From Candidatus Iainarchaeum sp. (GTDB lineage Archaea > Iainarchaeota > Iainarchaeia > Iainarchaeales > JAAZKV01): DNA of 12,576 bases. Positions 1 to 12,042 of this stretch are shown here, in pieces. The first letter of the stretch is position 1. Each line of letters starts with the position of its first letter. Under the pieces are notes generated by a model. It ran no database searches, was not told the origin of the DNA, and saw only the letters and a list, made by a program, of their open reading frames with translations. The DNA lies in assembly GCA_026397035.1 (NCBI GenBank), contig JAPLVQ010000118.1:717-13292 (forward strand). Reading direction: 5' to 3'. Both the position numbers and the translations under genes were made by a program.

Positions 1-362
1 TCATATTTAATTTCAACCCCAAAACTGGATCCGTCGCCAATTACTGAATATACTTTTGTAAGAAGATTGTGTCCTCCAACAATAAATATCTTTTTGAATT
101 TACTTTCAGAAAGCTTTTGTACGGCGTGCTCAATAATAGTTTTTCCTTCTACTTTTAACAAAGGTCTTTCTTCGAAATCAGTAGCATGTTCTTTTTTTGG
201 CGGGGTTGTAGCCATTATTACCGCTATTCTCTGGTCAATAAGAGCTTTCTCAAGAAGATATTCGATTGCTTGGGACAATCCGTTTATTCTGACCCCATCA
301 ACTAAACCCAAAACTTGGCTGAGAGTTTTTTCATTTATTGTAACCGATATCTTGTGTTTCAA
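1..362 (-). CDS. Ribbon-helix-helix + nucleotidyltransferase fusion protein (5' part, runs off left edge)
   Basis: The reverse strand is open from position 362 to the window edge (120 codons, no stop). Residues 1-45 look like a ribbon-helix-helix DNA-binding domain: a short beta strand (KHKISVTINE), then helices with LSQVLGLVDGVRINGLSQAIEYLLEKAL. From about residue 45 it resembles the start of a sugar-phosphate nucleotidyltransferase: strand RIAVIMA, then RPLLKVEGKTIIEHAVQKL and KKIFIVGGHN. Such fusions are known to me from archaea. The usual glycine-rich nucleotide loop (LAGGxGTR) is replaced here by MATTPPKKE, so catalytic activity is doubtful. There is no ATG before residue 50; I chose TTG at 362 because it places a start just before the domain's first strand, and an in-frame TAG lies upstream near 434. 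The alternative ATG at 215 would delete the DNA-binding domain. It is divergently arranged with the radical SAM operon, so it could regulate it (inference). Confidence 0.7.
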   Translation of the reverse strand, partial: MKHKISVTINEKTLSQVLGLVDGVRINGLSQAIEYLLEKALIDQRIAVIMATTPPKKEHATDFEERPLLKVEGKTIIEHAVQKLSESKFKKIFIVGGHNLLTKVYSVIGDGSSFGVEIKY

Positions 363-441: not shown

Positions 442-2028
442 ATGGGGACTGCACAAAAAGTTTTGCTGGTAGGGCCGTTTAAGAATTCTGAACTAAGAGC
501 TGGTCAGTTTTTCTCCCCGCCTAACGGAGTATACCGGATAAAATCTTTTGTTGAAAAAAAAACGGATGCAAGTGTAGATGTTGTTGATGTAGATCTTGAT
601 GGATTCCCTTTTTTAGGAAGAAAAATTATTGATAACAATTATGATATAATCGGTTTTAGCCTTCTTTATCCAACCATAAAAAATGATATTGAGCTAATGC
701 ACACTGCTAGACTTCTTTCTCCAAAATCAATTCTAATTGCAGGCGGGCAGGGCGCAGTTTTTATTAAAAAAGAGCTTTTGTCAAAAACCCCGCTTGATAT
801 AGTTGTTCATGGTTTTGGTGAATTCCCTATTGCAGAAATGATTAATTCAATTAAAAAGGGTTCAAATAAACCAGAAGATTTTAGAGAAATAAAAGGGCTT
901 TCAATAAAAACCTCAAAAGGGATAATTGATACTGGGTATAGGGATGTGTATTCAAACAAAGATTATGCAAAAATAGCTAATTCCTTTGATTATTCGGTTG
1001 TACCATATGAAAAATATTGGGAGCACATGGAATTAAAATATTCTAAGCAAGTACTTGAAGTAATGAAAAATGACGGACTACTTTATACAATAAGACTCAT
1101 GACAAGCAGCCATTGTCCAATGAGATGTACTTTTTGTTCAGCGACCAATTTTCTTGAAGATGCGACTGGAAAACTACAATGCTCACTAGAGACGGATGTT
1201 GGGGATATTATTAAGTCCATGAAACAAGCCATAAAGTTTCATCCGAATGTTAACGCATTTTATTTTAATGATGATAATTTGCTTCAAAATTCTGAACGAG
1301 CGGCAGAACTTTGTAAAGCTCTTGTAAATGAATTTGGTACAAAAAGTCTTAATTATTTTTGTCTTTCAAGAACAGACAACGTTGAACCAAATATCCTTTC
1401 ATTAATGAGAATTGCTGGTTTTAAGCTGATAATTTATGGGGTTGAGTCATTCTCAAATAAAATTCTCAAAGATATACAAAAAAAGATTGCTTCTAATAAT
1501 CCTTCAAGACTTGCAGAAAAGGTTATTATGCAAACAATAAATTCTGGAATCACTCCCTTAATGAATATACTCCTTTTTTATCCAACCACAACGATAAATG
1601 ACATAGTTGAAACGATTGAAAAATCAATTCCTTTAATTGAAAAGGGAGCTCGAATAACAGTCTTTTCATTTGTTGAATTTTATCCGGGTTCTGATATATC
1701 AAATGAAAAAAATATTGAGTATCAATATGAAAAATTCAGGATAAACAATCAATCTTATTGTTTTCCTTGGGCAATAATGCCTAAAAACAAAGAAGTGAAA
1801 GAGTTTGCTTTGTCAGCAATAGGACTAAGAGAAAAACTAATTAAAGAGATAAAAACAAAATATAATTACCAAAGGGAGTTGCCTCATCCGGTATTTTCTT
1901 TGAGTTTATTCTTGGCTGTTTTTAAATTACTTGAAAAATCAACCATCCAATTAGATAATCTTATAGATTCCTTGATGATTGAGGCAAAGAATGAAGAAGC
2001 AAAGGTGGTTGTTTATGGGCGAAATTGA
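442..2028 (+). CDS. B12-binding-domain radical SAM protein (528 aa)
   Basis: A class-B-type radical SAM enzyme: an N-terminal cobalamin-binding-like Rossmann domain (about residues 5-140; VLLVGPF, YDIIGFSLLYP, IAGGQGA at 99-105, DIVVHGFGEFP) followed by a radical SAM barrel (about 210-430). The [4Fe-4S] cluster motif CPMRCTFC gives C225, C229, C232. YFNDDN (274-279) and YGVES match the beta strands of the B12 radical SAM (BchE/Elp3-like) barrel. The classical DxHxxG cobalamin histidine motif is absent (the equivalent stretch reads VDLDGFPFLG), as in many class B enzymes, so cobalamin, if bound, would not be His-on. Family members mostly methylate unactivated carbons or do ring or rearrangement chemistry; the substrate here is unknown. 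The N-terminal strand requires the ATG at 442. It is the first gene of the operon and overlaps the next gene by 14 nt. Confidence 0.88.
   Translation: MGTAQKVLLVGPFKNSELRAGQFFSPPNGVYRIKSFVEKKTDASVDVVDVDLDGFPFLGRKIIDNNYDIIGFSLLYPTIKNDIELMHTARLLSPKSILIAGGQGAVFIKKELLSKTPLDIVVHGFGEFPIAEMINSIKKGSNKPEDFREIKGLSIKTSKGIIDTGYRDVYSNKDYAKIANSFDYSVVPYEKYWEHMELKYSKQVLEVMKNDGLLYTIRLMTSSHCPMRCTFCSATNFLEDATGKLQCSLETDVGDIIKSMKQAIKFHPNVNAFYFNDDNLLQNSERAAELCKALVNEFGTKSLNYFCLSRTDNVEPNILSLMRIAGFKLIIYGVESFSNKILKDIQKKIASNNPSRLAEKVIMQTINSGITPLMNILLFYPTTTINDIVETIEKSIPLIEKGARITVFSFVEFYPGSDISNEKNIEYQYEKFRINNQSYCFPWAIMPKNKEVKEFALSAIGLREKLIKEIKTKYNYQRELPHPVFSLSLFLAVFKLLEKSTIQLDNLIDSLMIEAKNEEAKVVVYGRN
2001..2008 (+). promoter_or_regulatory. 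Ribosome binding site deciding the start of the second radical SAM gene
   Basis: AAAGGTGG lies six bases before the ATG at 2015, inside the end of the upstream gene. It matches the archaeal anti-16S core GGTG and favours ATG 2015 over the in-frame TTG at 1979 or ATG at 1991, neither of which has a comparable site. Confidence 0.6.
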
Positions 2029-3013
2029 TTTTGTGAAAAGAGGGTTTGTTTCAAAAGAGCAATTTGAGTTTCCTTCGATAATAAATGTTTGTGTCCTTAG
2101 GGGCTCTTGTCCATGTGAATGCATTCATTGTCCAGTAGGACTGACCCCAAAAGAAAAAAGAGGGGATTTTTTTGGGAATGAGACAATAAATATTGAGCTT
2201 TTCAAAAAAATCGTCGATGAAATTAAAAATTACTCTTCAAGCGTTTTAAGAATACATGCTGTTGGAGAACCTTTGTTGTGGAACCGTCTAGAAGAAGCAT
2301 TAAAATATTCAAAACTAAGAAAAGTAAAAACATGGATTTTTACTTCAGCAGCAACAAAAAACAATTTGCTTCTGGAAATTCTTGCAAAGAACTGTTCAAT
2401 AATTGAGGTTTCAATTAATAGTTTTGATTCCGAAAATTATAAAAATACAAAAGGAATTGATGAGTTTAATTTGATAAAAAAGAATCTAAAATTCTTGTCT
2501 GATTACAAAAATAAAAACAGGTTTCATTGTAAAATACTTGTGTCAAGAGTACAAAGTAAAGACAAAGAATATGATGAGAGTTTTGTTGAATACTGGAAAA
2601 AATCTGGTTTAGTTAATGATGCCTTTGTCAGGTCTTATCACGATTATAACCACGCTATTTCGAATAAATTTGATACTCAAATTAGAGAAAACGTTCCATG
2701 TCTTGTTCATTGGGCAAGATTTAATGTTGATTGCTCAGGGGAAGTAGTTATTTGTTTTAATGAGCTTTTCAAAGGAAAAAAGGTAAAACCTGAATTTATT
2801 ATTGGTGATTTGAACAAAGACAGCATAAAAGAAATTTGGCAAGGGAAAAGATTGGAACAAATAAGGGAAGCCCAATTAGTTTCAGATTATGGAAGATTAA
2901 GTCTTGGATGCAAATTGCCTTGTGAAAGCTGTACTTGCTGTCAACCACTGAATACGACTAGAACAACTAGTGAAAATCAAATTAAAGATTTAAATTCTTG
3001 TGAAGAAAAATAA
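2015..3013 (+). CDS. Radical SAM protein with Cys-rich SPASM-like C-terminus (332 aa)
   Basis: Radical SAM enzyme with cluster motif CPCECIHC (C32, C36, C39, with an extra C34 inside it). The SAM-binding motif following strand 2 is AVGEP (G84-E85-P86) rather than the usual GGEP. The C-terminal third has the SPASM/twitch signature: C229, then C240 and G-x4-C (G242 to C247), IIGDLNKDSIKEIWQGK, and a dense cysteine tail CKLPCESCTCC (C299, C303, C306, C308, C309), which could hold auxiliary Fe-S clusters. SPASM proteins commonly modify peptides or proteins, but sugar- and other small-molecule-modifying members exist. It lacks the N-terminal FGG domain of the next four genes. Start ATG 2015 is chosen from its ribosome site; the reading frame stays open back to TTG 1979. 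The last 20 or so residues after the cysteines are polar and probably disordered. Confidence 0.85.
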   Translation: MGEIDFVKRGFVSKEQFEFPSIINVCVLRGSCPCECIHCPVGLTPKEKRGDFFGNETINIELFKKIVDEIKNYSSSVLRIHAVGEPLLWNRLEEALKYSKLRKVKTWIFTSAATKNNLLLEILAKNCSIIEVSINSFDSENYKNTKGIDEFNLIKKNLKFLSDYKNKNRFHCKILVSRVQSKDKEYDESFVEYWKKSGLVNDAFVRSYHDYNHAISNKFDTQIRENVPCLVHWARFNVDCSGEVVICFNELFKGKKVKPEFIIGDLNKDSIKEIWQGKRLEQIREAQLVSDYGRLSLGCKLPCESCTCCQPLNTTRTTSENQIKDLNSCEEK

Positions 3014-3040
3014 AAGAATTGTTTAGTTTAAGGGTAAATT

Positions 3041-3044
3041 GGTG
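3041..3044 (+). promoter_or_regulatory. GGTG ribosome binding site for the third radical SAM gene
   Basis: GGTG at 3041-3044 precedes ATG 3050 by five bases. It overlaps the alternative GTG start at 3044, so the ATG two codons later is preferred. A weak TATA-like stretch (TTTAGTTTAAG, about 3022-3032) in the same 36-bp gap could be an internal promoter, but this is not convincing. Confidence 0.5.
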
Positions 3045-3049
3045 TGCAA

Positions 3050-4291
3050 ATGATTAATTACAAAGTAAGGGAAGAAAAAAAAGGTGCTTTTTTATTTGAC
3101 AGGAAAAACGGAAAAGCGGAGCAATTAACTGAAGAACAATATCTTTCAATGTTAAATAATTCATTAATAAAAAATAATCCTGAATGGCAATTTATCCCTA
3201 AAAAAAACCGTGATTTGCTTCCAGATGATTGTTTTTCAGCCCCGTCAAGAATATATTTTGAACTTTCGAGAAAATGCAATCTGGGCTGCAAAGCGTGCTT
3301 TAATGAAAGCTCGTTGCCGCTCGATAAGGAACTTACAACAAAAGAAGTCCTTGATATACTTAATCAATTAAACAAAGCGGGAACATTTGAAATAAGGTTT
3401 ACTGGCGGGGAACCAACGACAAGAAAAGACTTTTTGACTATAATACAATATGCAAAAAAACTTGGTTTTTATATTAGCATGGGAACAAATGGGGTGTATA
3501 ATGCGACTAAATCCAAGAAAATAATTAATAGCGGGATTGATTGGTTCATTGTGAGCCTTGAAGGAAGGGAAAAGGTAAGTGATTATATACGTGGGAAAGG
3601 AAATTACAAAAAAGCGTTAAAAACTTTAAAGGCGATTTCAAAACAAAAAAAGCGAATCAGGATAAATACAGTAATAGGTAAATATAATAAAGACGAAATA
3701 AAATTTCTCGCAAAACTTGCTGATTCCCTTGGGGCAGAAAGCCTGAATTTAATTCCATTAAGACCTTATGGGAGGGCTGCGAAACTTTTGTCAGACCAAA
3801 TGCTTTCACGCAAAGAATTTTATGAAATGATAAAAACTATTAATGGTTTGAGAAAAGTTCATAAGGTAAAATTTGTTACAACGATTGATCTCTTAAATAA
3901 GGATAATCTTTCAAAACAGGATAGAATAATTAAAAAAGAGCGCACTTGTGCAGCAGGAGTTGAAGGAGCAGTAATTTCTCCTCTCGGGGATATTTATGGT
4001 TGTAGTTATAGTCCTGCAAGTGATCCATCTAGTAAAGATAAGATTGGTAAAGAAATATTTGTTGCGGGGAATCTTAGAAAACAAAAATTTTCTGATGTTT
4101 GGCTTAACAGCAAAAAGTGGGCAGTTTTTAGAGATTTAAAGCAATACAAGAACAAAAAATGTTTGTCCTGTAATCATTACAAACATGAATGTGTTGGAAG
4201 TTGTCCAGTAATGTCATATTATGAAAATGGAACTCTTGATAATTTTGATCCTTATTGTTTCAAAGACTTGCTTTTGGGTGAGAAAGCATGA
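3050..4291 (+). CDS. Radical SAM/SPASM protein, paralog 1 of 4 (413 aa)
   Basis: First of four tandem paralogs. Residues 1-35 form a short N-terminal domain (YKVREEKKGAFLFDRKNG, equivalent to FGGLLYD in the others) reminiscent in place and pattern of the PqqD/RRE-like peptide-recognition element of some SPASM maturases (inference). A conserved SAP(S/T) linker leads into the radical SAM core: CNLGCKAC (C76, C80, C83), TGGEP (G119-G120-E121-P122), MGTNG, IVSLEG, YIRGKGNYKKAL. The SPASM domain is complete: C300, G313-x4-C318, then C371-x2-C374-x6-C381-x3-C385-x17-C403, enough for two auxiliary [4Fe-4S] clusters. Known relatives use SAM to crosslink or otherwise modify peptides and proteins; no substrate is evident here. 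The stop overlaps the next start (ATGA). An upstream in-frame GTG at 3044 is possible but overlaps the ribosome site. Confidence 0.87.
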   Translation: MINYKVREEKKGAFLFDRKNGKAEQLTEEQYLSMLNNSLIKNNPEWQFIPKKNRDLLPDDCFSAPSRIYFELSRKCNLGCKACFNESSLPLDKELTTKEVLDILNQLNKAGTFEIRFTGGEPTTRKDFLTIIQYAKKLGFYISMGTNGVYNATKSKKIINSGIDWFIVSLEGREKVSDYIRGKGNYKKALKTLKAISKQKKRIRINTVIGKYNKDEIKFLAKLADSLGAESLNLIPLRPYGRAAKLLSDQMLSRKEFYEMIKTINGLRKVHKVKFVTTIDLLNKDNLSKQDRIIKKERTCAAGVEGAVISPLGDIYGCSYSPASDPSSKDKIGKEIFVAGNLRKQKFSDVWLNSKKWAVFRDLKQYKNKKCLSCNHYKHECVGSCPVMSYYENGTLDNFDPYCFKDLLLGEKA

Positions 4292-5442
4292 ATAGATATG
4301 TTATGAGAAAAGAAGTTTTTGGCGGATTATTGTATGATAGGGAAAAAGTTTTAGTTTATAGTCTTGATGAAAAAAGGTTTGTTGATATACTAAGACAAAG
4401 TCCACCAAATACAGATATTATTTTGAGGGAAAGTAGTTTATGCTCAACTCTAAGTGCCCCGACAAGAGTATTTTTTATTTTAACAAACAAATGTAACCTG
4501 AACTGTACTTATTGTTCTAATGATTCAAGTCCATTAAAAGAAGATTTATTGAATTTTTATGAAGTAAGCAGAATATTATATGAACTCAAAAATATGGGTG
4601 TGTTTGAAATATCCTTTGGCGGGGGGGAACCTCTTTGTCACCCAGACTTTTTCAAAATAGTAAAACTTGCTAAAGAATTGGGCTTTGTTATTTTTATTAA
4701 TTCAAATGGAATTTATACAGAAGAACAAAAGAAAATGCTGGCCAAATCCAGTATAGACAAAATTAAAATAAGCATTGATGGTGTTAGCGGGGTGAATGAT
4801 TCTCTCAGAGGGACAGGTAATTTTGAGAAAGCATGGTCTTCAATGCTTTATTTTAAAAAGATGGGAAAAAGAGTAAAAGTTAATTGTACTTTATCAAGAA
4901 AAAACTTTTTTGGTGCTTTTGAACTAAGCAAATTGTGCAATGATAATGAGTGTGGTCTAAAAATAGCCCCAATGTTTAATGTTGGCAGAGCAAAAAACTC
5001 AAAAATGGAACCAATCCTTTTAGAAGAAATTTTAAACTTGCGAAATCAAATAGAAAACTATTGCAAAGAAAAAGGAATTGAAAATCGTACAAATATTACT
5101 TCTTCATTATTTTGTGAACTTTCTGGGGAAAAAGGGGAATTTAGCGGGATGCATATTGAGTGTTGCATAAACAGGATTCATACAAGCATTGATTTCGACG
5201 GTAGTGTAATTCAAACCGGTTGTCAGACTTATTTTGAACGGCATAAACCGCTTGGAAATATTAAAAATGAAAATTTTTCGGATGTTTGGGCTAAAATTCA
5301 GGTGCATAACGAAAAAGTTAAAAATTTGACAAAAGATTGCAGAGAATGTGACTTAAATCAGAGACTAGCAAATTATTTTTGGGTAACAAATGATTTTCAT
5401 GGGGAAGTGTTTGAAAATGGAAAAACAAAAATTATCTTTTAG
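4288..5442 (+). CDS. Radical SAM protein with reduced SPASM/twitch end, paralog 2 of 4 (384 aa)
   Basis: The N-terminal domain has RKEVFGGLLYDRE, then the SAPTRVFF linker and radical SAM core: CNLNCTYC (C69, C73, C76), GGGEP (G111-G113, E114), INSNG, KISIDG, SLRGTGNFEKAW. The C-terminal auxiliary region is reduced compared with paralogs 1 and 4. It keeps C292/C293, C312 with G-x6-C instead of the usual G-x4-C, and a single CxxC (C351, C354), followed by CDLNQRLANYFW where the others have the remaining SPASM cysteines. That is enough for one auxiliary cluster (twitch-like), not clearly two. Translation starts at ATG 4288 in an ATGA overlap with paralog 1, with GGGTGAG at 4276-4282 as ribosome site. 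A run of seven G (4621-4627) lies in the GGGE codons; the frame is intact through it. Substrate unknown. Confidence 0.85.
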   Translation: MNRYVMRKEVFGGLLYDREKVLVYSLDEKRFVDILRQSPPNTDIILRESSLCSTLSAPTRVFFILTNKCNLNCTYCSNDSSPLKEDLLNFYEVSRILYELKNMGVFEISFGGGEPLCHPDFFKIVKLAKELGFVIFINSNGIYTEEQKKMLAKSSIDKIKISIDGVSGVNDSLRGTGNFEKAWSSMLYFKKMGKRVKVNCTLSRKNFFGAFELSKLCNDNECGLKIAPMFNVGRAKNSKMEPILLEEILNLRNQIENYCKEKGIENRTNITSSLFCELSGEKGEFSGMHIECCINRIHTSIDFDGSVIQTGCQTYFERHKPLGNIKNENFSDVWAKIQVHNEKVKNLTKDCRECDLNQRLANYFWVTNDFHGEVFENGKTKIIF

Positions 5443-6535
5443 GCATGAATATTTTGGGGGATTACTTTATGATCCAGATATTTGGACATTAAAAGCTTTC
5501 TCAAAAAGCGGTGTGCAAGAATTTTTTGGCATGACAAAAGAAATACCCTTGATTTTTAATAACCCAAAAACAGGTTTTTTGTCTGCTCCGTTAAAAGTAT
5601 TTGTTGCAATTTCAGCATCTTGTAATTTGAGGTGTAAACATTGCATGGTGGGAAAAAAACGTACTCAAACAAAAGAACTGAGTTTTTCTAGTTTAAAAAA
5701 AGTTTTTAAGCAACTTGGTCAAATGGGAGTTTTTGAGGTGCGTTTAGGCGGTTTTGAACCAACTGCAAGAAAAGATTTTGACAAAATATTTGAAGAAGCC
5801 AAGAAAAATAATCTTACCGTTTCTATTAATACTAACGGGGTTTGTGCTGACGAGATAAGAGAAAAGCTTGCAAATAGTTGTGTTGATAAAGTACATGTTA
5901 GTCTTGATGGGCTTGAAAAAAACCATGATTATATTAGAGGGATTGGATCATTTAAGCGTGCAATTGAAACGATAAAATTGCTAAAATCAAAAAGAAAATA
6001 TGTGCGAATAGTTGTGTGTTTATACAAAGACAATCTTTGTGATGTTGATGAATTGATAAAAATTGCTGAACAACTTGACTGTGACATAAAGTTTTCTCCT
6101 GTATCAAAAATAGGCTCTGCCGAAGAAATGCAAGGTCTATTGGACAGACAAGAAAATGAATTACTTAAAACAAAGATGGATCTTTTTAAGAAAAAAGTGA
6201 ATGTCTTCTTTAATTATGGTACAATGGCACCCGATTTTTTTGATTATTGTGATATTAGTGATTTTGACAGCGTGATTTGCGGAGCGGGCAGAACGCAGCT
6301 AAGAATAGAAAATAATGGGGATGTTATAATGGCTGGTTGCGGGGACTTATTGTCGGGTGTAAAACCGCTTGGAAATGTCAAAGAGTCCTTTAGTGCCATG
6401 TGGGAGAAATCCCAATTTGTAATGGAAGAATTGATGAAAGAACGTGGACAAAAATGTTCTTCCTGCAGTCTTGAATCAGTATTTGGAGCTTGGTTGAAAA
6501 AACCGACTCCTGCATTTAACTTTTGGAGAGAATGA
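5417..6535 (+). CDS. Radical SAM protein with reduced SPASM/twitch end and altered GGE motif, paralog 3 of 4 (372 aa)
   Basis: Closest in plan to paralog 2: N-terminal FRHEYFGGLLYDPD, SAPLKVFV linker, cluster motif CNLRCKHC (C69, C73, C76), INTNG, HVSLDG, YIRGIGSFKRAI. At the SAM-amino-binding motif it reads GGFEP (G111, G112, F113, E114), where paralog 2 has GGGEP at the same numbering, so the last Gly before Glu is Phe. The auxiliary region keeps C288, C308 (G-x6-C) and one CxxC (C347, C350), then SLESVFGAWLKKP; the later SPASM cysteines are missing. It may hold one auxiliary cluster, and the altered motif could change SAM binding. ATG 5417 is preferred because it puts the FGG motif at about residue 13, as in its paralogs; in-frame ATGs at 5390 and 5399 are alternatives. 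From 5417 it overlaps paralog 2 by 26 nt. No strong ribosome site. Confidence 0.82.
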   Translation: MEKQKLSFRHEYFGGLLYDPDIWTLKAFSKSGVQEFFGMTKEIPLIFNNPKTGFLSAPLKVFVAISASCNLRCKHCMVGKKRTQTKELSFSSLKKVFKQLGQMGVFEVRLGGFEPTARKDFDKIFEEAKKNNLTVSINTNGVCADEIREKLANSCVDKVHVSLDGLEKNHDYIRGIGSFKRAIETIKLLKSKRKYVRIVVCLYKDNLCDVDELIKIAEQLDCDIKFSPVSKIGSAEEMQGLLDRQENELLKTKMDLFKKKVNVFFNYGTMAPDFFDYCDISDFDSVICGAGRTQLRIENNGDVIMAGCGDLLSGVKPLGNVKESFSAMWEKSQFVMEELMKERGQKCSSCSLESVFGAWLKKPTPAFNFWRE

Positions 6536-6539
6536 AATT

Positions 6540-7730
6540 ATGTTTTCAAGCATGAAAGGGAAAATTGTTTTTCGAGAAGAAAAATTCGGGGGGATAATTT
6601 ACAATTCTACTACTGGTAAATACAATTATGTTACAAAAGAACAAACCAAAGAGCAACTGGAAAAATTTAAATCAAGCAGCTTGGTTTTTGTTAAAAACCC
6701 GGAAATTACAAACTGTTATCTAAATGCGCCTGAAGAAATAGGTCTTGATATAACGCAACAGTGCAATTTGGTTTGTTCTCACTGTTATAAAGATTCTGGG
6801 AAAAATACAAAAAAGGAGCTCTCGACTCAAGAAATATTTGAGATAATTGACGAAGCTGCTGAAGCAGGGATATTTTGTCTTTTCATATCTGGCGGCGAAG
6901 CTACTTGCAGGCAGGACCTTTTTGAAATTGTCAATTATGCGAACAATAAAGGAATCCGTTCAACGCTTACTACAAATGGTGTTTATGGAAAAGACATTTT
7001 GGATAAAATAGTCTCTGCAAATTTTCTTAGAGTACAGATTAGTCTTGATGGGCCGAAAAAAGTTCATGATGGCATAAGAGGAAAAGGCAATTTTGATAAA
7101 TCGGTTGAGTCAATAAAATATTTAAAACAGCGAGGGGTTGATATAAGAATAAGCTGTCATCTTTGTAAAATAAACAAAGACTTTATTGAAGAAATGATTG
7201 CTCTTGCAAATTCTATCGGTGTTGCAATAAAGTTTTCTACTATCCGTCCTATTGGAAGGCAACAAACAACAGCAGATTTGGAAATGCTAACTGGCAAAGA
7301 GTTCTATAATGCAGTGCAAAGAATTCTTGAATTAAAAAAAGACTTTCCAAAAATCCAAATAACTTGTGATTTTGACAAACTGGTAGCGGAAGAAACGCTT
7401 TATCCTTTGCCCTCAGGTGGAAATAATCGCTGCTTGGCTGCAGAAAAAACAATTGCCATTGATAGTTATGGAAATATATTTCCTTGCAGCTTTTTTACCC
7501 CCTTTCCTGAATTTAATGCAGGCAACGTAAAAAACAATGGATTCATGAAAATTTGGAAAGAATCTGGGGTGTTTAAAAAATTTAGAGGCCGAAAATCAGC
7601 TGAAGAATGTATTTCTTGCAAGTATTTTGAAAAAAGTTGTTTTGGTGGCTGTCCAGCAATATCTTATGCTTTATTTAATAATGTTGAAATGCTTGACCCG
7701 ACTTGCCCAAAAAGCGAAATGAAAAAATAA
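6540..7730 (+). CDS. Radical SAM/SPASM protein, paralog 4 of 4 (396 aa)
   Basis: The N-terminal domain has VFREEKFGGIIYNSTTGKYN, then a NAPEEIGLD linker and radical SAM core: CNLVCSHC (C75, C79, C82), SGGEA (G118-G119-E120, Ala replacing the usual Pro), LTTNG, QISLDG, GIRGKGNFDKSV. The SPASM domain is complete like paralog 1: C298, G311-x4-C316, C357-x2-C360-x6-C367-x3-C371-x17-C389, with spacings identical to paralog 1 in the last five cysteines. Paralogs 1 and 4 therefore look like one subtype and 2 and 3 another. Start ATG 6540 follows GGAGAG (6525-6530) by nine bases; ATG 6552 is an alternative. It lies four bases after the stop of paralog 3. Predicted cytoplasmic; substrate unknown. Confidence 0.87.
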   Translation: MFSSMKGKIVFREEKFGGIIYNSTTGKYNYVTKEQTKEQLEKFKSSSLVFVKNPEITNCYLNAPEEIGLDITQQCNLVCSHCYKDSGKNTKKELSTQEIFEIIDEAAEAGIFCLFISGGEATCRQDLFEIVNYANNKGIRSTLTTNGVYGKDILDKIVSANFLRVQISLDGPKKVHDGIRGKGNFDKSVESIKYLKQRGVDIRISCHLCKINKDFIEEMIALANSIGVAIKFSTIRPIGRQQTTADLEMLTGKEFYNAVQRILELKKDFPKIQITCDFDKLVAEETLYPLPSGGNNRCLAAEKTIAIDSYGNIFPCSFFTPFPEFNAGNVKNNGFMKIWKESGVFKKFRGRKSAEECISCKYFEKSCFGGCPAISYALFNNVEMLDPTCPKSEMKK

Positions 7731-7743
7731 AGGGGGTATATTT

Positions 7744-8622
7744 ATGATGAGAGTTAATTTATGCAAGGGTCTAAAAAGAACCAAACGGTTTCCAAAAGAC
7801 AATGAAATTAGATTTGTGTGGGGAAAGTATTTGCCTGAATTATTTAGGGGAAAATCGCTTGTTCGTTATATTCCAAATGAATACGGTCCGGATTTTAAAA
7901 TAATATTTAACAAACGCAGAGCAGCTAATTTGACTTATCCAAAAAATATTTGTCCGTTCAGCAAATTTTTAAAAAGAAGGTATTATGTGATTGGCAACTA
8001 CATTTTGACCCCCAATCTGTATCCATTTGCTAAGCACCATCGGCTTTTGATAACAAAAAAACATTACGCAAATCCAAGGTTAAAAGACTTTGAATTTATA
8101 CTAAAGTTCTGTGAAATTATTCCAACTACTGCAATTCTGAGTATTAAGGGGTCTGGGGCGGGAGTTCCAGCTCATCTCCATTTTCAGGTATTTGACGAAA
8201 AACTTCCTGTAATGAGTGCAAAAACAAAGTTTCTTTTTTCAAATGGGGAAGTAGTTGTTAGTCGAATAATTTATCCATCTTATGGGATAAAGATAATTGG
8301 AAAGAATATTTCAAAATGGGTTTTTAGAATAATAAAGGGTATTTCTTATTCTTATAATCTTGCAATAAAAGGGAATCAAGTTATTTTTTATCCGCGAACA
8401 ATTGTTTTGCCAACAAAATCTGTCGAGTGGCGTTTTGGGGCGACAGAGTTAAGCGGCTTTATTATAACAAAGAACAAAGAAGTATTTGACTCAATTACCT
8501 GCGAACAAATAAAAAAGTATTTAAAAAAAGCCACTATTTCTTCAAGAAAAGATATAAATGAATTTGAGAAAAAAGTAAAAAATGCCATTAAGATTAAAAA
8601 GCTGAAGAAAACTGCTGATTAG
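7744..8622 (+). CDS. HIT-superfamily nucleotidyltransferase/phosphorylase-like protein (292 aa)
   Basis: Two HIT-fold signatures are visible: NLYPFAKHHRLLITKKHY (residues 91-108) and GAGVPAHLHFQVF (138-150) with H144-x-H146-x-Q148. The HxHxQ form is typical of the GalT/Apa/GDP-sugar-phosphorylase branch, where the second His is the nucleotidylated nucleophile, rather than of HxHxHxx hydrolases. The exact family (for example DUF4922-like or GDP-hexose phosphorylase-like) cannot be settled by eye. A basic C-terminal tail (KKVKNAIKIKKLKK) follows the fold. Start ATG 7744 is preceded by GGGGGT (7732-7737) with six bases between, and the gene lies 13 bp after the last radical SAM gene, so it is very likely co-transcribed. 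It may activate, transfer or cleave a nucleotide-linked intermediate of the pathway (inference). Confidence 0.75.
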   Translation: MMRVNLCKGLKRTKRFPKDNEIRFVWGKYLPELFRGKSLVRYIPNEYGPDFKIIFNKRRAANLTYPKNICPFSKFLKRRYYVIGNYILTPNLYPFAKHHRLLITKKHYANPRLKDFEFILKFCEIIPTTAILSIKGSGAGVPAHLHFQVFDEKLPVMSAKTKFLFSNGEVVVSRIIYPSYGIKIIGKNISKWVFRIIKGISYSYNLAIKGNQVIFYPRTIVLPTKSVEWRFGATELSGFIITKNKEVFDSITCEQIKKYLKKATISSRKDINEFEKKVKNAIKIKKLKKTAD

Positions 8623-8651: not shown

Positions 8652-8969
8652 TTATTCTCCTTTGACAAGCTTGTCATCCTTAATTGAGGGCCACTTTATA
8701 AGAAAACACTTTAAGTTCGGACTTGTTTTTATTATACCATGAACTTCACCAGGTTCAACGAACAAAACCTGCCCTTTTTTTACTGACAACCTTTTCTCAT
8801 TAATTAGAATCTCAAAAGAACCTTTGGTGACAATATAATATTCATTAATCTTCTTGTGGGAATGCTGTTTGTCTGGCGCTTTTGCAAAGTAATCAATCTC
8901 AACAGGAGACTTGGATTCTCCAACGCCAAGAAGCCACTTTCTTTTGCAATTAATATCGGCAAGTTCCAT
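8652..8969 (-). CDS. Single-domain cupin protein (105 aa)
   Basis: A small beta-barrel cupin. Motif 1 is HSHKKINEYYIVTKG with metal ligands H36, H38, E43; motif 2 is GQVLFVEPGEVH with H77. All four classical ligands are present, so it should bind a divalent metal. Similar one-domain cupins act on sugars or sugar phosphates or as small-molecule sensors; the specific reaction is not readable. It is transcribed toward the radical SAM operon and ends 29 bp from the HIT gene (convergent), so it is not part of that operon. ATG 8969 has no ribosome site but does have a TATA-like box about 26 nt upstream, suggesting a leaderless mRNA. Confidence 0.82.
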   Translation of the reverse strand: MELADINCKRKWLLGVGESKSPVEIDYFAKAPDKQHSHKKINEYYIVTKGSFEILINEKRLSVKKGQVLFVEPGEVHGIIKTSPNLKCFLIKWPSIKDDKLVKGE

Positions 8970-8989
8970 ATATTGGTTGTTGGAAAATA

Positions 8990-9001
8990 ATAATATAAAA
9001 A
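8990..9001 (-). promoter_or_regulatory. TATA-like box for the cupin gene
   Basis: On the reverse strand TTTTTATATTAT is centred about 26 nt before the cupin ATG at 8969, the archaeal TATA-to-TSS distance, implying a transcript that starts at or next to the ATG. Confidence 0.5.
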
Positions 9002-9113
9002 GACCGCTTTGTCCTTAATATGGTATAGTATGTATTTCGCGTTGGCGGTTGTAAATTAGTATCATTTTAGGGCATAACCAATGTGTTTGAATAGTATTTT
9101 AATGGGAAATATG

Positions 9114-9120
9114 TATAAAT
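9114..9120 (+). promoter_or_regulatory. TATA-like box for the lipoprotein gene
   Basis: TATAAAT is centred about 24 nt before ATG 9141. This spacing suggests a leaderless mRNA beginning at 9141 and argues against the in-frame upstream ATGs at 9081, 9102 and 9111. Confidence 0.5.
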
Positions 9121-9140
9121 TTAATATGCAAAAGCGCGGT

Positions 9141-10058
9141 ATGGATTCAAGATTACTTATTGGGAGCATTACTGCTTTGTTTGTTTTGGCACTTTTTGGG
9201 TGTATTCAAATACCAATTGGTGGGCAGGCAGTAAATGTTGAACTAAATAAACCGATTACTTTAGCCCAGAACTCAACTTATGAAAATAAGGATTCAAATA
9301 TATTTTTCACAGTAATTTCTTTTACTGATTCTCGGTGTCCTGCTGGAAAAGAATGTATCTGGGCGGGGGAGTTAGGAGTCAACCTTAAACTTTATGGTGG
9401 AAATTTAATTAAAGAACAACAAATCCATTTAGCCATGACTACAGAAAAAAGCACACTAATTGGTAATTATCAGATTGAACTTTTGGCAATTGATCCTAGT
9501 AATAGTCAAGTCCAAATAAAAATTACTGATATTACGCAGCCTATTATTGGCGAACAAAAATGGTTTTCAATAGAGTCAAAACAATGCAATAACAATCCTT
9601 GGAATATTTGGAAAGCAAGTAAAATGCAGGAACTTACTATCCAAGGGATATCTCCGCAAGAACCAACCGAAGAAATTCAATTAGTGCGCTCCTGGCTTAC
9701 GGAAAAATACAAGATAACTGTTTTAGATTTTGCATCAGGAAGTGTGGCAGATTTAGTGACTTGCGAAACATGTAACTGCCTTACAGGAGAAAAAATAGCC
9801 GTGCTTGTTGATGCAAATTATTCAGCGAAAATGATTGAAATAGGTTTTACTGAAATGGGGTTAATTGGATGCACAATGGATGCGAAAATTTGTCCTGACG
9901 GAAGCGCAGTTGGGCGTACAGCGCCGTTCTGTGAATTTGAAGTGTGTTCTTCTATAAATGAGGAATCAATTGTGTGTCCAAAAGATGCAAGAAGCTGTCC
10001 TGATGGAAGTATAGTAGGACGAGTAGCGCCAACTTGTGAATTCGCTTTATGTCAGTAA
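9141..10058 (+). CDS. Putative lipoprotein with RCPxxxxCxWAGE motif and two C-terminal Cys-rich repeats (305 aa)
   Basis: Begins with MDSRLL, a hydrophobic stretch and LALFGC, a lipobox-like end to a signal peptide with C21 as anchor, so it is probably attached to the outer face of the membrane. Residues about 60-80 hold DSRCPAGKECIWAGE (C66, C72), a motif I recognise from many secreted proteins of unknown function. A middle region has CNNNPW (C149) and a CETCNC cluster (C208, C211, C213) preceding a beta-rich LTGEKIAVLVDA segment. Residues 244-269 and 279-304 are two 26-residue copies of C-x7-CPDGS-x-VGR-x-AP-x-CEF-x2-C, four Cys each with one Cys at each end. I chose ATG 9141 because it gives a normal signal peptide and sits the right distance from a TATA-like box; the frame is open from ATG 9081. 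No enzyme function is evident. Confidence 0.7.
   Translation: MDSRLLIGSITALFVLALFGCIQIPIGGQAVNVELNKPITLAQNSTYENKDSNIFFTVISFTDSRCPAGKECIWAGELGVNLKLYGGNLIKEQQIHLAMTTEKSTLIGNYQIELLAIDPSNSQVQIKITDITQPIIGEQKWFSIESKQCNNNPWNIWKASKMQELTIQGISPQEPTEEIQLVRSWLTEKYKITVLDFASGSVADLVTCETCNCLTGEKIAVLVDANYSAKMIEIGFTEMGLIGCTMDAKICPDGSAVGRTAPFCEFEVCSSINEESIVCPKDARSCPDGSIVGRVAPTCEFALCQ
9870..9947 (+). repeat. Cys-rich domain repeat, copy 1
   Basis: Encodes residues 244-269 of the lipoprotein (CTMDAKICPDGSAVGR, then TAPFCEFEVC). It matches copy 2 at 9975-10052 in length and in all four cysteine positions; a 27-bp linker separates the copies. Confidence 0.75.
9975..10052 (+). repeat. Cys-rich domain repeat, copy 2
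   Basis: Encodes residues 279-304 of the lipoprotein (CPKDARSCPDGSIVGR, then VAPTCEFALC). It ends two codons before the stop. The DNA has diverged from copy 1 at many positions, so the duplication is not recent. Confidence 0.75.
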
Positions 10059-10145
10059 ATTTAGGAAGACCTTTTTTTGGAAACTTTTTTTGTTTCTGGT
10101 AAAGTATTTAACCTTGTTCTTCTATGCTTTTTGTACGGTGTTTTG

Positions 10146-10979
10146 GTGAGTAAAAGCTTTAAGAAAAAAAATACTGGGAAAATGATTCCTGAAACAGAAA
10201 AAGGGGGAAAAGGAGTTTTTGGAAAATCGTTGTTTTTTGTTTCAAATTATAAGGGATTTTCACTTGCTGTAATAGTAGTGCTTTTTGCGATACTCTTATT
10301 ACTTTTGAATTATGCTGGTGTTTCTAATGGGGTTCCTGACTTTACTGCAGAAAAAATATCCTACGCGCAAGGACTTTATACTTCAAATCAGGAACTGCTT
10401 GACAGTTATGTGATTGGAATGGAAACACAAGCAGTCCCTGATGGAATACAAGCAGTCCCTGATGGAATACAAGCAGTCCCTGATGGAATACAAGCAGTCC
10501 CTGATGGAATACAAGCAGTCCCTGATGGAACACAAGTGGCTGAAGGAGAAACAAGCACTATTAATGATGATTATTATACTTCAACAAAACAGGATATTGA
10601 CTGGCTGAAAAATAAAGAAACCCAATTGTACAAAACGCCGCCAATAAGACTTTTATTTGCGCGAGAACTTGCTTATTCTGGAGTTATGCAATTAGTAATG
10701 ACAATAAATACTTCCACTGTTTTCCAATTATCAGAACAAGATTATACTTCGTCAATTAATGAAGCAAAAAATCAGGGAATAACAATGCCGATGATACTAT
10801 CTCAGCAAGAAATTGACGATACTTTTAGTTCAAGCGAAGAAAAAGATGCATTCAACAAGACTTGCGAAGAATTGTTTAAAGAATACGTCGCCCTCAAAAA
10901 GCAAATACTTGAATCTAATGCTTCAAAAGAAAGAAAATTTGTCGAAGCAAAAAAACTTCTCTGGATAACGGATTCATAA
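10146..10979 (+). CDS. Single-pass membrane protein with QAVPDGI tandem repeats (277 aa, start uncertain)
   Basis: Not recognised as a known family. It has a basic N-terminus (SKSFKKKNTGK), one transmembrane helix at about residues 38-57 (FSLAVIVVLFAILLLLLNYA), and then a domain probably outside the cell. Residues 95-129 are five exact copies of a heptapeptide, QAVPDGI (last copy QAVPDGT), followed by a polar linker and a helical C-terminal domain (about 150-277) with DIDWLKNKETQLYKTPP and a charged helix ending KERKFVEAKKLLW. GTG 10146 is chosen because GGTG precedes it by five bases, the same spacing as at 3050. TTG 10077 (which would add a hydrophobic stretch) and ATG 10182 (with a TATA-like TTTAAG upstream) are alternatives. 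It follows the lipoprotein gene on the same strand and may be co-transcribed with it. Confidence 0.6.
   Translation: MSKSFKKKNTGKMIPETEKGGKGVFGKSLFFVSNYKGFSLAVIVVLFAILLLLLNYAGVSNGVPDFTAEKISYAQGLYTSNQELLDSYVIGMETQAVPDGIQAVPDGIQAVPDGIQAVPDGIQAVPDGTQVAEGETSTINDDYYTSTKQDIDWLKNKETQLYKTPPIRLLFARELAYSGVMQLVMTINTSTVFQLSEQDYTSSINEAKNQGITMPMILSQQEIDDTFSSSEEKDAFNKTCEELFKEYVALKKQILESNASKERKFVEAKKLLWITDS
10428..10532 (+). repeat. Five tandem 21-bp repeats, in frame
   Basis: Five head-to-tail copies of CAAGCAGTCCCTGATGGAAT(A): 10428-10448, 10449-10469, 10470-10490, 10491-10511, 10512-10532. The first four are identical; the fifth differs only near its end (GGAACA). The flanks (ATGGAAACA before, CAAGTGGCTGAAGGA after) look like decayed partial units. 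The period is a multiple of three, so copy-number change keeps the frame. Confidence 0.95.
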
Positions 10980-11952: not shown

Positions 11953-12042
11953 GCCTCTGTGGCTCAGTTGGTAGAGCGCCAGTTTTGTACTCTTAAATGA
12001 CAAACTAACTGGATGTCGTGGGTTCAAATCCCACCAGAGGCT
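11953..12042 (+). tRNA. tRNA-Thr(UGU), intron-containing
   Basis: A full cloverleaf can be drawn. Acceptor stem GCCTCTG (11953-11959) pairs with CAGAGGC (12035-12041), with discriminator T at 12042. D stem GCTC/GAGC has loop AGTTGGTA, anticodon stem is CCAGT (11979-11983)/ACTGG (12008-12012), variable loop ATGTC, T stem GTGGG/CCCAC with loop TTCAAAT. The anticodon loop before splicing is 24 nt; removing 17 nt (11990-12006) leaves TTTGTAA with anticodon TGT (11986-11988), which reads ACA threonine codons. CCA is not encoded. Discriminator U fits archaeal tRNA-Thr. Confidence 0.95.
11990..12006 (+). other. tRNA intron with bulge-helix-bulge junction
   Basis: The 17-nt intron CTCTTAAATGACAAACT lies between tRNA positions 37 and 38. 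The loop bases TTTG (11984-11987) pair with intron CAAA (12001-12004), a 4-bp central helix flanked by two 3-nt bulges, TA^C and CT^A, each cut after its second base. A short inner stem TC/GA closes the intron loop. This is the standard archaeal splicing endonuclease substrate. Confidence 0.9.

Follow-up and report, generated by a model that had tools for sequence, protein, structure and literature searches.

Six adjacent radical SAM genes and an Ap4A-phosphorylase-like gene in an archaeal operon that may modify a peptide

A run of seven genes, six of which encode radical S-adenosylmethionine (SAM) proteins, lies within a 12,576-nucleotide stretch of DNA from Candidatus Iainarchaeum sp. (assembly GCA_026397035.1, contig JAPLVQ010000118.1, positions 717 to 13,292; this whole stretch is referred to as the window). 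The listing of open reading frames (ORFs) of the window places the seven consecutively on the + strand at 442..8622, and they are named A to G here: a B12-type radical SAM protein (A), a SPASM enzyme (B), the radical SAM paralogs C to F and a protein of the HIT superfamily (G). Our analysis supports one multi-step modification system of an undescribed type. The reading we favor, to which we give a probability of slightly under one half (about 0.48), is a pathway similar to those of ribosomally synthesized and post-translationally modified peptides (RiPPs), of the MftB-MftC/SkfB kind, whose product would be a multiply modified and perhaps nucleotide-linked peptide. Both the multiplicity and the enzymes are unusual for RiPP maturation of this kind.

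The overlaps of 14, 4 and 26 nt and the gaps of 36, 4 and 13 bp given in the initial annotation were reproduced when the ATGs at 2015, 3050 and 5417 were taken as the starts of B, C and E in place of the longest-ORF starts (1979, 3044 and 5390, respectively). The CX3CX2C motif that it had reported for all six adjacent radical SAM genes was also recovered in each of A to F, including CPMRCTFC at residue 225 of A. Matches to the Pfam family Radical_SAM were above the cut-off for A, C, D, E and F, and B scored 28.8 bits against a cut-off of 29.5 in the window scan and 30.4 bits, above the cut-off, in the whole-genome search. Six of the 24 Radical_SAM matches of the whole assembly are adjacent in this operon.

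Each of D, E and F shares 30-32% identity with its paralog C, and all four consist of an N-terminal domain, a radical SAM domain and a C-terminal domain. C (3050..4291; 415-aa ORF from 3044) and F (6540..7730) carry a full SPASM domain in which the seven C-terminal cysteines (CX17C ... CX2CX6CX3C ... C) are complete, at C302, 320, 373, 376, 383, 387 and 405 of the 415-aa ORF and at C298, 316, 357, 360, 367, 371 and 389 of F. In D (4288..5442) and E (5417..6535; ORF open from 5390) the cysteine set ends after CX2C, the distal SPASM cysteines being missing, and the C-terminal domain is shortened and twitch-like. The CX3CX2C motif and the SPASM/twitch domain (PF13186, above the cut-off in C, D, E and F) of radical SAM maturases with a RiPP recognition element (RRE) are both present in all four. 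The initial annotation had spoken of four FGG-domain paralogs; a literal FGG is found in D, E and F, and C has KGAFLFD at that place.

Among the best 25 of the 70-78 NCBIfam matches of each paralog, MftC was the best model every time (C 151, D 119, E 122.2 and F 201.6 bits, all below the cut-off of 265). For the MftB-like N-terminal pieces of D, E and F, the best match was MftB (F 22.1 bits, E-value 1.4e-4; D 17.4 bits, E-value 0.004; E 13.1 bits). The best fold matches of the structural model of E were the peptide maturases SuiB and SkfB, which aligned from residues 3-4 onwards with the N-terminal domain included, at an identity of about 18-21%. In this model the SAM domain is preceded by three strands and a single helix, and the N-terminal domain of E would be a shortened RRE; the layout of SkfB is described as RRE, radical SAM and twitch (PMC6231123). 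By sequence, the solved structures closest to F were PqqE and then SkfB and CteB.

Our phylogenetic tree of 41 proteins, for which the rows were chosen by hand and in which several branches, including those of D and L080, are long, places C to F in one clade of 20 (support 99/98) together with 13 non-self E orthologs and the proteins P0025, P0028 and L080, separate from the other included radical SAM proteins of this genome and of related genomes in its order. The E family has D, on a long branch, as its sister (support 100/97), and therefore the split between D and E predates the spread of the E orthologs. Within the clade, the positions of F and C are weakly supported (89/56 and 91/90, respectively).

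A (442..2028, 528 aa) combines an N-terminal B12-binding domain (PF02310, 37.7 bits) with a radical SAM core (PF04055, 33.4 bits), both above the cut-off, as in class B B12-dependent radical SAM enzymes, and B (2015..3013; 332 aa from the ATG at 2015, ORF open from TTG at 1979) is a radical SAM protein with a SPASM domain (PF13186, 39.9 bits), so that the labels first given to the two genes hold. None of the 17 NCBIfam matches of A reached its cut-off, the best being HpnJ with 74.0 against 577.6. Scored among the 7,996 candidates with the most shared words, 41 of the 50 proteins found are non-self relatives of A at 38-70% identity (some partial), after which identity drops to 29% or less, and the six that carry organism names are all Nanoarchaeota/Nanoarchaeia, Pacearchaeota or Woesearchaeota. 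One relative, from a Nanoarchaeia archaeon (P0148), is a single 828-residue protein with an A part (45% identity) followed by a B part (54%), suggesting that A and B probably work together. Two A relatives (P0161, P0164) are extended at the N terminus by about 130-200 residues that match no Pfam family.

The last gene, G (7744..8622), encodes an Ap4A-phosphorylase-like nucleotidyltransferase of the HIT superfamily. It had been called an HxHxQ HIT protein. The motif is present as HLHFQ at residue 144, with the Q kept in eight of nine aligned sequences, and the assignment can be refined in that the closest fold of the G model is Ap4A phosphorylase, within the HIT/GalT superfamily. The score of G with ATP_transf (PF09830) was 16.5 bits, below the cut-off of 23.5, and DUF4922 likewise remained below its cut-off. 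G differs from the yeast Ap4A phosphorylase Apa2, to which it is 13-14% identical, in its linkage to genes of radical SAM proteins.

For E there are 13 non-self orthologs at 44-68% identity (351 bits or more; the next protein has 136 bits and 33%) and for G six non-self relatives, and in three cases the two occur on contigs of equal size: 19,063 bases (P0004/P0010; G 58%, E 66%), 1,031,526 bases (P0006/P0012/P0133; G 47%, E 55%, plus an A relative at 56%) and 22,792 bases (P0005/P0018; G 49%, E 49%). Sizes equal to the base almost surely denote the same contig, thus E and G, once with A too, almost surely share contigs, at a distance and in an order that the size match does not fix. With A, E and G as markers, the operon is missing from the 86 other genomes searched within its phylum, many of which are incomplete assemblies; the own genome served as positive control in these searches of 87 genomes. 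In these, G gave three matches, two of them non-self at 31-35% identity with no A-F-like ORF around them by BLAST. The E-family profile matched 22 genomes at an E-value of 1e-25 or less, and the matches outside the host assembly (G000), none better than 1.6e-39 (own E 1.7e-188), are generic relatives; the A-family profile matched four genomes at 1e-30 or less, with none outside C122 better than 3.1e-36. In searches run without a positive control, the E-family profile found nothing at 1e-60 in 86 genomes of the G088 phylum or at 1e-50 in 34 genomes of the G091 phylum, the A-family profile nothing at 1e-50 in 86 genomes of the G088 phylum, and the G profile nothing in seven genomes behind loci. 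Viral contigs yielded 13 distant loci with the E profile, two with the A profile and none with G, B or D. An E-family member (P0021) used as query retrieved 521 plasmid records, all below 60% identity, and the eight matches listed were mycofactocin, PqqE and other radical SAM proteins. A scan with F of named genome contigs gave 21 loci (23-31% identity in the best segment), and the operon was found in none of the ten annotated by ORF and BLAST.

The absence from the 86 genomes of the phylum counts toward uniqueness to this genome, which had been named beforehand as an outcome that would speak against a system. The proposal of a multi-step modification system of no described type is supported by the NCBIfam results, the C-F clade and the contig sharing of E and G, in one case with A. 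The gene set is real and rare, and has probably been gained or lost in a patchy manner.

In the RiPP-like pathway, each of C, D, E and F would be a natural fusion in which a peptide-docking domain, shortened to the beta-wing half of an MftB/PqqD-type RRE, is joined to an MftC/SkfB-type radical SAM enzyme, and the four would act in turn on a single peptide or protein tail whose gene probably lies at another site of the genome. Two auxiliary Fe-S clusters would be present in C and F and one in D and E, and each enzyme would catalyze an oxidative step, for example a cross-linking, a decarboxylation or the formation of a thioether. The B12-dependent A would be coupled to B, the two adding a methyl group or bringing about some other C-C change, and G may transfer a nucleotide via a histidine-bound intermediate, either capping or activating the product or cleaving a nucleotide-linked intermediate.

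Several observations weigh against this pathway. No convincing precursor was found among the reading frames of at least 18 aa, with any start, scanned in the window (the genome beyond it was not scanned). All MftB matches are below the cut-off of 33 bits, the N-terminal piece of C has no MftB match, that of F has a weak match to DUF2129 in Pfam, and Pfam did not find PqqD in those of C to F. The lead of MftC over heme b synthase and NirJ2 is narrow (C 151, 144 and 143 bits; F 202, 157 and 179 bits, respectively). The N-terminal domain of the E model has one helix compared with three in the RRE fold, which comprises three beta strands and three helices, and the leader of SuiB is described as making no contact with the RRE (PMC6231123). 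Co-carriage rests on equal contig sizes in three of six non-self G and three of 13 non-self E proteins; one G lies on a 40,775-base contig without a listed E relative, and E relatives lie on contigs of 115,824, 47,849 (a Patescibacteria protein, P0016) and 34,080 bases without a listed G, so that only some members of the E family are accompanied by G.

Three short putative reading frames lie mainly in gaps, nested ones of 26 and 21 aa at 352/367-432 upstream of A and one of 24 aa at 8944-9018. The frame at 352-432 (+, 21-26 aa) is hydrophobic and ends 9 bases before A.

The initial annotation did not recognize the combination as a described pathway, and our results agree with this: no listed NCBIfam match of the window proteins reaches its cut-off, and the gene set is undescribed as judged from titles and abstract openings. 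One of the nearest described systems is that of mycofactocin (MftA-F), from which come the best curated model for C to F (MftC) and that for the N-terminal pieces of D, E and F (MftB), but the respective cut-offs are not reached, the MftB-like part is fused and shortened, there are four paralogs rather than one MftC, and B12 radical SAM and Ap4A-phosphorylase-like genes are added. There was no listed match to MftA, MftD, MftE or MftF among the ten window proteins scanned. The MftA precursor has the C-terminal motif ...GxCGVY, and this ending is absent from the three short gap frames (21-26 aa) of the window. By these tests the operon is not a mycofactocin system. The SkfB and SuiB maturases (sactipeptide and streptide) share the three-part layout of RRE, radical SAM and twitch/SPASM, but differ in the low identity to E, the single helix of its RRE-like part and the lack of a convincing precursor gene at hand.

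The His-Xaa-Ser (Hxs) system is likewise a multi-radical-SAM peptide system, and its marker HxsB occurs in a relative of the host; the window proteins have no listed match to HxsB, C or D. Six multi-radical-SAM stretches in relatives of the host (the dense ones of L117, L118, L119, L121 and L122 among them) were considered as versions of the operon and rejected, having no ORF with the N-terminal motif R-x-E-x-x-[AG] and, in L117, an HxsB of 432 bits (cut-off 370). HxsD-like proteins were present below the cut-off of 50 in L118 (40.2 bits) and L119 (47.2 bits), and the five stretches named are probably archaeal His-Xaa-Ser systems. A defence system was also rejected: in PADLOC the matches of the radical SAM genes were of viperin type only (pVip with C, 92.7 bits), A and G had no match at 1e-5, and the NCBIfam viperin cut-off of 180 bits was not reached by D (61.0) or B (26.3), the model not being among the best 25 matches listed for C, E and F.

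A different possibility, which we consider rather unlikely, is a small-molecule pathway like those to blasticidin or desosamine, with a nucleotide-activated sugar or a nucleoside as its substrate. Here the radical SAM enzymes would deoxygenate, decarboxylate or C-methylate an NDP-sugar, G would make or phosphorolyse the nucleotide link and a divergent nucleotidyltransferase would supply the activated sugar. The gene meant, a candidate member of the system that lies upstream of A, has its start within 1..362 on the - strand and is truncated by an assembly gap just beyond the window. From its sequence it probably encodes a nucleotidyltransferase, with NTP_transf_3 at 23.8 bits (cut-off 27) and NTP_transferase at 19.6 (cut-off 21.2) both below the cut-off (L063 683-1078, -).

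Somewhat less probable still are two modules, A-B being a pair that is widespread in archaea and acts on a substrate of its own and C to G a separate pathway, arranged together by chance or for regulation. The 41 non-self relatives of A against 13 of E and six of G, the single A contig size in common with E or G, and the A-B fusion all favor such a division, but relatives of A, E and G are all found on the 1,031,526-base contig size and the genes here are spaced by only -26 to +36 nt. Tetrapyrrole, lipid or quinone chemistry, with C to F as heme-type (AhbD/NirJ-like) or envelope-lipid enzymes, is very improbable: NirJ2 and AhbD are the second and third models for F and close seconds for C, a radical SAM-SPASM gene of a relative (L069 9099-10523) adjoins a UbiA prenyltransferase gene (L069:9099-11405) and the tetraether lipid synthase 7tol matches F at an E-value of 4e-8, but the NirJ2 and AhbD cut-offs (500) are far from reached, the L069 protein falls outside the C-F clade, tetraether lipid synthase aligns with E only from residue 57 on and none of the ten window proteins scanned is a tetrapyrrole or lipid gene product.

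Archaea with tiny genomes are generally regarded as lacking most biosynthesis, and the ribosomal peptide products of archaea are little charted. Six radical SAM genes and a need for B12 in a single operon are a large investment for an assembly of 1.29 Mb. The E and G families form a rare and easily searched marker pair with which the precursor of the RiPP-like pathway could be sought by comparing the few carrier genomes.

The host assembly (188 contigs, 77% complete) is matched by the ribosomal L15e model, which among 14 control genomes matches only the four archaeal ones, and the host is therefore archaeal. G is followed by a small cupin gene on the opposite strand, two ORFs without a family (9081-10058 and 10077-10979, both +), a gene for a CxxCxxCC protein (-) and a tRNA-Gln (11953-12042), therefore the operon is taken to end at G. 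At 90 bases the tRNA exceeds the 71-position model and may contain an insertion or intron. A 21-base tandem repeat of 5.6 copies at 10419-10536 encodes QAVPDGI repeats; the ORF concerned also has a hydrophobic stretch and matches nothing in Pfam. The CxxCxxCC protein has orthologs of 58-60% identity in three of four congeners, therefore the contig fits the genus, and these orthologs speak against a mis-binned contig. A second copy, 61% identical, lies on C39 of the host assembly, which at 1.29 Mb compares with 0.7-0.9 Mb in its four congeners; G000 may be a mixed bin, and the operon contig may come from a sibling organism within it.

A second mini-cluster in the host genome (L064:9606-13333) encodes a PqqD-radical SAM-SPASM protein with 37% identity to F, a 289-aa protein that no family matches above its cut-off, and a B12 radical SAM protein with distant similarity to A. 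On a viral contig with a tail tape-measure-type protein (L103:8265-13044), a radical SAM protein ends in many HGDKPYGDKP-type repeats; after it come a B12 radical SAM protein similar to A (29% over A residues 25-503) and a glycosyltransferase-like protein, and a neighboring protein (L103 5695-7839) has His-rich PH-x-D repeats. The contig may belong to a phage that modifies its own repeat peptides.

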